Shown here: positions 31,920-57,239 of the stretch, one piece after another
Layout of the letters: each line of letters begins with the position of its first letter
How positions within the stretch are numbered: the stretch's first letter is position 1
Assembly (NCBI GenBank): GCA_021846275.1
Contig: JAJZBZ010000004.1
Span: 1-64,000 of the forward strand
Direction: 5' to 3'
From: Acidobacteriota bacterium
GTDB taxonomy: Bacteria > Acidobacteriota > Terriglobia > Terriglobales > Acidobacteriaceae
Length of the DNA: 64,000 nucleotides
The notes under the pieces: generated by a model
The model's input: only the letters and a program-made list of their open reading frames with translations
What the model was told of the DNA's origin: nothing
The model's database searches: none
Program-made: the position numbers and the translations under genes

Positions 31920-31928
31920 GCACGCTGG

Positions 31929-32060
31929 CATTGCATGCAGCAGCCGCGACCTTCGGTCGCCACGGACGATTGTGGCGCTTCCGTTGGTCGCGGTTTTGTT
32001 TGGACGGGAGACTTCGGAAAAAGCGAAAGCAGATTCCCTTCGGGAATGACAACCAAAAAA
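31929..32060 (+). repeat. Mosaic palindromic repeat, copy B
   Basis: CATTGCATGCAGCAGCCGCGACCTTCGGTCGCCACGGACGATTGTGGCGCTTCCGTTGGTCGCGG...GCAGATTCCCTTCGGGAATGACAACCAAAAAAGCAA. Confidence 0.85.
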
Positions 32061-35382: not shown

Positions 35383-35880
35383 GGCATGGCATGCAGCAGC
35401 CGCGCGCTGTGCGCGTCACGGACGGTTGTTACCGCTCCCTCTGGTCGCGGGTGGAATTGGCTGAGGATGAAGCAAAAAGCAAAAAGCAGATTCCCTTCGG
35501 GAATGACAACAAAAAAGCATTGCATGCAGCGGACGCGCGCTTTGCGCGCCACCACCATTTGCGGCGCTTCCGATGGTCGCGGGTGGGTGTGGCTGAGGAT
35601 GACGGGAAAACAAAAGCAAAGACAGAAGCAGATTCCCTTCGGGAATGACAACAAAAAGGCATTGCATGCAGCGGATGCGACCTTCGGTCGCCACGATGAG
35701 TTGTGACCACTTCCGTTGGTCGCGGGTGGGTGTGGCTGAGGCTGACGGGCAAACAAAGGCAAAGACAGAAGCAGATTCCCTTCGGGAATGACAACAAAAA
35801 GGCATTGCATGAAGCGGATGCGACCTTCGGTCGCCACAATGAGTTGTGACCACTTCCGTTGGGCGCGGGTGGGCATTGGT
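35383..35880 (+). repeat. Tandem array of four mosaic palindromic repeat units (C1-C4, ~136-143 bp each, last truncated)
   Basis: Units at about 35383, 35519, 35659 and 35802; each with ATGCAGCRG.C-GCGCGC/GCGACC hairpin head, first three with ATTCCCTTCGGGAATGACAACAAAAA tail. Confidence 0.9.
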
Positions 35881-55172: not shown

Positions 55173-55955
55173 ATGGCATGGTATGCCTATTGTGTCAGTG
55201 AAAAGCAGTCTTTCCCGGAGTTAGCCCGCCATCGTAAACCAGTACCGCTTGAGTCCGTGACCGGCATCGGTGGCGGCCAGGTATTTCTGTATCCGGCCAG
55301 CGACCTGGCGATTGTGGTCAGCGAGTACGCCGGTTCCGAAGCGCTGAACCAGCGCGCGGGAGTGGACCATGCGCGGGTGATCTCGGAGTGCTTCCATAAA
55401 TCGACGGTGCTGCCGTTTCGGTTTGGCACGGTTTTTCAGGACGATGAAAGCCTGCGGAAGTCGATCCGGTCGAATCAGCGGCAGTTCCAGGGGAATCTGG
55501 AGCGGCTGCTGGGCAAGACGGAGATGCACCTGAAGGTGACGGTCGAGGATTGCTGCAAGGAGCTGGGCGTGGTGCCGAGCATCGAGACCGTGGGACGCGG
55601 CTACCTGAGCAATCTGCGGGAGACGGCGTCGCGACAGCGCGAGCGGCAGACGCGGGCGCGAGCGGTGGCGTTTCAGTTGCACCGGATGTTTGCACCGCTG
55701 GATGAGGAAGTGACCTGTCGCGTGCTGGAGAACGGGAAGATGCTGCTGGATATTGCGCATCTGATCGACCGGCGCTGCGTGGAACGCTACCAGAACAAAT
55801 ATGCCGCGACGGTGCAGATGATGAAGGAGTGCCAGTTGCAGCTCTCCGGTCCGTGGCCGCCGTATCATTTTGTGCATCGCCTGACGCGGGCGGCGCAAAC
55901 GACGGTGGCTCCAGCCGAGCGCGCGGTGGCAGCTTCTCAGCTTGCCGCTGTCTGA
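55173..55955 (+). CDS. GvpL/GvpF family gas vesicle protein homologue (orphan)
   Basis: 'YAYCVSE', 'VLPFRFGTVFQDDESLRKSI', 'LERLLGKTEMHLKVTV', C-terminal 'LQLSGPWPPYHFV'. Confidence 0.82.
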   Translation: MAWYAYCVSEKQSFPELARHRKPVPLESVTGIGGGQVFLYPASDLAIVVSEYAGSEALNQRAGVDHARVISECFHKSTVLPFRFGTVFQDDESLRKSIRSNQRQFQGNLERLLGKTEMHLKVTVEDCCKELGVVPSIETVGRGYLSNLRETASRQRERQTRARAVAFQLHRMFAPLDEEVTCRVLENGKMLLDIAHLIDRRCVERYQNKYAATVQMMKECQLQLSGPWPPYHFVHRLTRAAQTTVAPAERAVAASQLAAV

Positions 55956-55956
55956 G

Positions 55957-56586
55957 CATTGCATTGCATGCAGCGGCTGCGCGCTTTCGCGCGCCACGGC
56001 CATCTGTGGCCGTTTCCGTTGGTCGCGGGTGGGCTGTGGGCGACGGCGATGGGAAAGCAAAAGCAGAAGCAGATTCCCTGCGGGAATGACAACAAAAAAG
56101 CAAAGGCAACTGCAACGGCAAAAAGCAGAAGCAGATTCCCTGCGGGAATGACAACAAAAAAGCAAAGGCAACTGCAACGGCAAAAAGCAGAAGCAGATTC
56201 CCTGCGGGAATGACAACAAAAAAGCAAAGGCAACGGAAACCGCGGAAGCTCCGCTCCTGTGCAAACTGCGTATGCGTTCTTGCTGACGACTGACGGCTGA
56301 CGGCTGACGACTCAGGAGCAGATTCCCTGCGGGAATGACAACAAAAAAGCAAAGGCAACGGAAACCGCGGAAGCTCCGGCTCCTGTGCAAACTGCGTATG
56401 CGTTCTTGCTGACGACTGACGGCTGACGGCTGACGACTCAGAAGCAGATTCCCTGCGGGAATGACAACAAAAAAGCAAAGGCAAGGACAACGCCTGGATG
56501 GTGACCGCCGACGTTGCCTGTTTGTGTCTGCACGCGACCAGCGGGAGCGGCAACTGCGCGAACGCGCGGCTGCTGCATGCAATGCC
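55957..56586. repeat. Mosaic palindromic repeat element D: forward head, five tail modules, inverted head
   Basis: GCATTGCATGCAGCGGCTGCGCGCTTTCGCGCGCC at left and GCGCGAACGCGCGGCTGCTGCATGCAATGC at right; ATTCCCTGCGGGAATGACAACAAAAAAGCAAA at 56073, 56135, 56197, 56322, 56448. Confidence 0.9.
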
Positions 56587-56591
56587 TGGGG

Positions 56592-57239
56592 TCAGGAGCG
56601 GGAGGTGGAACTGCGGCGGTGGCGGATGAGGACGCTGCCGGCGCGTGTGGCCTGTGCGGCGCGGTCGATTTTTTTCCAGAAGCCGAGGAAGTAATCGATG
56701 GCGGAGATGGTGGAGACGAGCGCGGCGAAGTAGATGGCGGCGATGGCGATGGAGGCGACGGGCATGATGAATGGCCCGAAGTGCCAGGAGTCCCAGCGGT
56801 GAGCGAGGATCGACGAGGTGACGGCGACGATCTGGATGACGGTTTTGAGTTTGCCGAGGTCGCTGGCCTGGATGGTGAATCCTTCGGAGGCGGCGATGGA
56901 GCGCAGGCCGGAGATGAGGAATTCGCGGCCGATGATGAGGACGGCGATCCAGACCTTGACGACGGCGGGATTGAAGGCGACGAGCGCGACGAAGGCGGAG
57001 GTGACGAGGATTTTGTCGGCGAGCGGGTCGAGGAGGATGCCCATGGTGGTGATCTGGCCGCGCTTGCGGGCGAGGTAGCCGTCGACGCCGTCGGTGACGG
57101 AGGCGAGGACGAATAGCAGAGACGCGGCGATCTCCTGCGCGCCCCAGCCGGTGTGCCAGGGGAAGTGCGAAGAGAGCATCCAGAGCAGAAGCGGGATCAT
57201 GAGGATGCGGCTCAGCGTGATGGAGTTGGGCAGATTCAC
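56592..57239 (-). CDS. pgsA: CDP-diacylglycerol--glycerol-3-phosphate 3-phosphatidyltransferase
   Basis: 'NLPNSITLSRILMIPLLL', 'DGVDGYLARKRGQITTMGILLDPLADKIL' CDP-alcohol phosphotransferase motif. Confidence 0.92.
   Translation of the reverse strand: MNLPNSITLSRILMIPLLLWMLSSHFPWHTGWGAQEIAASLLFVLASVTDGVDGYLARKRGQITTMGILLDPLADKILVTSAFVALVAFNPAVVKVWIAVLIIGREFLISGLRSIAASEGFTIQASDLGKLKTVIQIVAVTSSILAHRWDSWHFGPFIMPVASIAIAAIYFAALVSTISAIDYFLGFWKKIDRAAQATRAGSVLIRHRRSSTSRS

Follow-up and report, generated by a model that had tools for sequence, protein, structure and literature searches.

The interval between a gvpF/gvpL-type gas vesicle protein gene and a pgsA-type gene, in a window of 64,000 nucleotides (positions 1 to 64,000 of contig JAJZBZ010000004.1 of an Acidobacteriota bacterium), is probably best understood as two REP-like repeats, independent of each other, one at the 3′ end of each gene of a convergent pair. 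The element common to both sides is called the head here, and heads in this genus tend to begin, in sense orientation, at or just past the stop codon that ends the upstream gene. The inverted look of the locus arises because this stop rule acts on both genes of a convergent pair. Opposed repeats between convergent genes can pass for terminal inverted repeats; the preliminary description of this DNA had read the interval as a mobile unit with such repeats at its ends.

The interval and the two genes that border it comprise the following parts:

55173..55955, plus strand: gvpF/gvpL-type gas vesicle protein gene, stop TGA at 55953-55955 (Pfam GvpL_GvpF, 1.5e-53)
55956..55960, plus strand: GCATT, seen in the sequence as a further, incomplete copy of the head start, lying between gvpF/L stop and head
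55961..56025, plus strand: forward head of the long subtype, 65 nt, which folds into a closing stem and two hairpins
56064..56187, plus strand: two 62-bp tail units, each the tail hairpin GATTCCCTGCGGGAATGAC with an AAC/GCAA-rich run, 100% alike
56188..56493, plus strand: tail, TGACGACTGACGGCTGACG microrepeat spacer, tail, the same spacer, tail; 126-bp period, 98% alike
56494..56530, no strand assigned: single-copy segment of about 37 nt that separates the last tail from the reverse head, without a match elsewhere in a search of the organism's own genome
56535..56585, minus strand: reverse head of the short subtype, 51 nt, which has no tail; its nearest relative is at L128:2189, on another contig
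56592..57239, minus strand: pgsA-type CDP-alcohol phosphatidyltransferase gene, stop TGA at 56592-56594 (Pfam CDP-OH_P_transf, 1.2e-38)

Much of the anatomy first described holds: a forward head begins at 55961 and a reverse-complement head lies at 56572-56585, with inverted arms of 30 nt that are 83% complementary; five tails (56070, 56132, 56194, 56319 and 56445) follow at spacings of 62, 62, 125 and 126, where shuffled sequence yields a mean of 0; the microrepeats sit in both long tail intervals; and the element fills the gap between the stops of the two genes, which point toward each other. GCATT and the forward head come directly (0 nt) after the gvpF/L stop; after the pgsA stop come CCCCAG (6 nt) and then the reverse head. 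Partial head-start copies like GCATT also precede heads at other arrays. The single-copy stretch at 56494..56530 is probably a remnant of the old intergenic spacer.

One way to account for this arrangement is a single mobile unit, with the heads as its ends and the tails as an expanding interior, moved by single-strand transposition. Opposed heads do stand at both borders, and the element is missing from the orthologous sites of congeners; even so, the idea is largely refuted and highly improbable. The two heads are of different subtypes with different nearest relatives: ranked by similarity, each finds its partner only 70th or 65th of 78, and each is far closer to heads elsewhere, the forward head (65 nt) to one on contig 8 (L117) and the reverse head (51 nt) to one on contig 11 (L128). 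Opposed good heads are unique to this locus among 58 arrays, in which no second such pair lies within 1.5 kb; paired heads, of which further copies had been anticipated, are thus not a family trait. The tail-microrepeat-tail interior also occurs at C5:166278 without a reverse head, and the genome has no Y1_Tnp gene. Judged as a MITE-like element, the locus lacks ends that are inverted copies of one sequence (the subtypes differ), and no other paired-end copy was found, the case at L111 being a degenerate head of a convergent gene. The congener site is empty, with flanks too diverged to reveal a target-site duplication. Since two copies of separate subtype each sit behind the stop of their own gene, the locus is best read as two separate family copies, one behind each stop, and not as one mobile unit.

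That the element is a multicopy composite repeat is borne out by a dispersed head family in the genome. The head 14-mer GCATTGCATGCAGC is present in 82 exact copies (55 + 27), and in 120 at ≤1 mismatch, within 3.34 Mb; the reversed control gives 0-1 (exact: 0). The motif search that picks up both heads of the locus gives 8 matches at ≤3 mismatches (shuffled mean 1.6; none of 100 shuffles as high). The window has two further arrays:

31928..32053, plus strand: head and tail array, 8 nt past the stop of a TonB-like outer-membrane receptor gene
35384..35874, plus strand: four heads with interposed tails in tandem, period about 143 bp, 91% alike

The second of these mixes the stem versions GCGCGC and GCGACC. 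Heads measure 51-67 nt, with constant ends around a hairpin whose stem varies. Arrays were read from 40 stretches around head matches and from the window (n = 58), and many follow one plan: head, tail, then optional microrepeat-tail units. A single orientation per array is kept throughout, except at the gvp-pgsA locus and for one degenerate head in L111. Lone heads also occur in tandem at a 63-64 nt period, and head-start pieces (GCATTG, GCATTGCATG) are duplicated ahead of heads. At L113:10465, L123:2024, L101:1981 and other places, an extra recurring module like CCCACCCAAGCGGAGCCTGGATGGGGCACCC lies between head and microrepeat.

Eight further species of the genus carry heads (G003, G005, G007, G008, G009, G012, G013 and G014), most of them with small genomes; six congeners with larger genomes have none, and matches outside the genus are single and weak or stray. 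A covariance model of the head, whose RNAalifold pairing included a doubtful outer helix, was run on 120 genomes of the family and gave matches in this genome and three single weak ones. Rfam returned 0 matches at gathering score in 30 kb that include all three window arrays, and no account of such a repeat in Acidobacteria was found in the open-access literature. High copy number, intergenic position and imperfect palindromes place the heads in a REP-like family in the wide sense.

The family also shows a regularity of position. The head starts at -1 to +1 nt of a same-strand stop in 10 of the 58 arrays here and in 11 of 39 arrays in relatives, and within 20 nt of one in 18/58 and 17/39; the opposite-strand control gives 0 and 0 (0/97 arrays). 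Distance was taken from the first head of an array, with short duplicated start pieces removed. Random positions meet the -1 to +1 nt window in 0.08% of cases, and uniform intergenic placement would yield 0.4% (binomial P 1e-13 here, 2e-17 in relatives). In four arrays head and stop codon overlap by one base, the final letter of the codon serving as the head's opening G. About 70% of arrays here lie more than 20 nt from any called same-strand stop, a figure to be read with the weakness of gene calling by codon use, which is unreliable for strand. That caller lost pgsA; therefore, upstream genes were confirmed by Pfam: UvrB, Tricorn protease, S10 peptidase, DoxX, Rieske, TonB-like receptors, M20 peptidase, TldD, LpxB, GH39, ZIP, enoyl-CoA hydratase and others. 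A second convergent case is L111: there a minus-strand outer-membrane receptor gene, which faces a forward array, has a degenerate reverse head at 0 nt past its TAA. No insertion motif emerges beside the head: there is no consensus except a G at -1, and a surplus of TAG, TAA and CTAG that stop codons account for.

Neutral repeats might be thought to produce such a distribution: insertion would occur anywhere, copies would survive only in non-coding DNA, and deletions would trim the spacer down to the stop. Most arrays are indeed intergenic, and head-bearing genomes are small (about 3 Mb) in comparison with those of head-free congeners. Neutrality predicts neither the sense-only preference nor exactness to one base, however, and tails on their own show no exactness at stops. 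As a full account it is unlikely.

The structure of the head offers a second line of evidence. The first stem exists in versions that keep its pairing: GCGCGC/GCGCGC, GCGACC/GGTCGC, GCGGCC/GGCCGC and GCGGGC/GCCCGC, and further GCGCGGC/GCCGCGC, GCGCAGC/GCTGCGC, GCGCGTC/GACGCGC and GCGCTCC/GGAGCGC. Covariation was counted on hand-named stems, because the RNAalifold pairing had a doubtful outer helix. In two gap-free alignments, 8 and 13 cells have changed on both sides with pairing kept, a count reached by none of 500 shuffles; few positions covary, two pairs in each stem class, and the changes are partly inherited and not all independent. Shuffled sequence folds as well as the short reverse head does. 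The covariation is evidence for a function or process that senses the folded strand, be it RNA or DNA.

Movement by a Y1/RAYT transposase finds no footing in these data. No gene in this 98.6% complete genome (G000) matches the Pfam profile Y1_Tnp, so that the TnpA_REP-like protein whose binding had been suggested as an experiment is absent. Y1_Tnp is missing also from the head-bearing G003, G005 and G013; for the Y1_Tnp genes of G007, G008, G012 and G014, the surrounding stretches of 2-4.3 kb contain no head. Absent here and not flanked by heads in these relatives, Y1_Tnp was rejected as the mobiliser.

The same observations bear on whether the heads are REPs strictly defined, palindromes with a GTAG tag that a RAYT (TnpA_REP) mobilises; an opposed pair would then be a REPIN or BIME. 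High copy number, intergenic position and a hairpin fit, as do sites both shared and unshared between species, and many relatives have RAYT-type genes. But an alignment of 62 heads has no GT[AG]G tetranucleotide at the hairpin foot, that is, neither GTAG nor GTGG; arrays run head-to-tail rather than alternating; four head-bearing genomes, this one included, have no Y1_Tnp, and the Y1_Tnp genes of the four relatives named above have no head in the stretches around them. Strict membership is accordingly quite improbable.

Known systems resemble the heads in part. PMC12306157 and PMC6006769 describe E. coli REP/BIME as high-copy intergenic hairpins, many ≤15 nt downstream of stops and clustered with other motifs. 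Heads are likewise high-copy intergenic hairpins near stops (in a third to two fifths of arrays), clustered with other repeat motifs. They differ in being 51-67 nt long with two or three helices and a stem that varies between copies, in lacking the GTAG foot, in their same-orientation arrays, in an edge often exact to the stop and in the absence of TnpA_REP from the genome. Like the REPINs with RAYT of Pseudomonas and others, heads are dispersed in non-coding DNA, multiply within genomes and differ between related species, but no GTAG tag, alternating-pair unit or head-flanked RAYT gene was found in the head family. CGTC-tagged palindromes (PMC3733652) are, like heads, palindromic repeats without a dedicated transposase; the head, which is larger and composite, has no CGTC foot. 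Acidobacteria are not among the phyla listed for the CGTC repeats (PMC3733652).

The tail has a history of its own. It was found in every one of the 15 searched genomes of the genus, also in head-less species, where it stands alone between genes and is not exact at stops. It is a separate genus-wide repeat, amplified locally in tandem into copies 98-100% identical. At the gvp-pgsA locus, TRF reports 62 bp × 2.8 at 100% matches and 126 bp × 2.4 at 98% matches. Expansion of the interior by slippage, as had been proposed, fits the tandem copy number, but the 126-bp tail-microrepeat-tail unit was not born here: a version with 83% identity also stands at C5:166278-166603. Among themselves the copies here reach 98%, as against 83% to the C5 copy; therefore, the unit was imported first and then tandem-duplicated. 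On contig C1 of G004, between 182797 and 1037140, the exact tail copies listed, about 50 across 850 kb, all share one orientation. Tail orientation may follow the direction of replication or of genes.

Comparison of orthologous sites, proposed earlier as a search for empty sites, found them empty in congeners. Orthologues of gvpF/L exist in 14/14 congeners. Across about 30 convergent gvp-pgsA pairs of congeners and more distant relatives, none has a complete head, tail or microrepeat; one head-like word with 2 mismatches turned up in this survey, in the 2.6-kb gap of L183. Many Acidobacteriaceae have the two genes as convergent neighbors, usually separated by a two-way terminator; in several close congeners the space holds neither a terminator nor a repeat. 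The more distant relatives mostly have an ordinary two-way intrinsic terminator at the junction; G008, G013 and G014 have 47-69 nt only, with neither terminator nor element. On the simplest reading, the repeats would have been gained at gvp-pgsA after the split from the nearest sampled species.

The survey raises the thought that the head takes the place of the upstream gene's intrinsic terminator and itself ends transcription. This gap contains a terminator in relatives but not in this genome, and the array holds 11 terminator-like matches as against 1.5 in shuffles. Most of those matches, though, are the tail on the minus strand; head hairpins have no proper T run; and the three species with the short junction do without either device. 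A terminator role is therefore unlikely.

Elsewhere, head sites are common to species: L113/L220, L123/L209, and uvrB in G000 and G008, with differing numbers of heads (4 vs 3). Between species, heads at a shared site resemble each other less than copies inside one genome do. Either homogenisation operates within genomes, or the same gene ends have been hit repeatedly. The latter option can be elaborated into a targeted process that senses gene 3′ ends and places or re-copies heads at stops, for instance via the mRNA or the translated strand and without a Y1 transposase, the same ends being hit again and again in different species. This is possible but decidedly unlikely.

The two-repeat account can be put in steps. 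The family unit is polar: a head, a tail hairpin, then optional microrepeat-tail units. On the gvpF/L side stands a forward head with its tail array, on the pgsA side a head of the other subtype without a tail, and a short non-repeated stretch separates the two. Arrays grow by local tandem duplication. The data thus establish where the repeats lie, their polarity, their structure and their tandem copy number; beyond that, copies would be spread or homogenised by an agent other than a Y1/RAYT of this genome. Directly behind the stop, a head in the mRNA would present a strong structure that could affect ribosome release, translation yield or 3′-end decay; such action, or insertion tolerated only behind stops, would keep it in place. 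The model is the E. coli REP: those ≤15 nt from a stop codon stall ribosomes and lower translation, according to PMC12306157, which cites earlier work. By analogy, the head most likely acts at the same place on the mRNA, or is at least tolerated only there, and the repeats most likely constitute a new REP/BIME-like family acting at mRNA 3′ ends, its function judged from that of the E. coli REPs.

REP-like repeats are common, and many sit directly behind stops. The often exact, sense-only stop placement in this clade, the covarying stems and the species-specific versions at shared sites make the reason for this testable by comparison, with targeted insertion, selection at the mRNA 3′ end and gene conversion as candidates.

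Among other hairpins at such positions, the attC sites of integron cassettes have variable stems and lie directly past stops in sense orientation; their likeness to heads is a lead only. Unlike attC, the head shows no GTTRRRY/RYYYAAC core boxes, and its neighbors are ordinary chromosomal genes rather than cassettes. A smaller observation concerns lpxB. In G003 (L214:2950) the gene ends and the head follows directly; in this genome (L114:9906, on C7) the frame seems to run through an apparent decayed head into a longer C-terminus.
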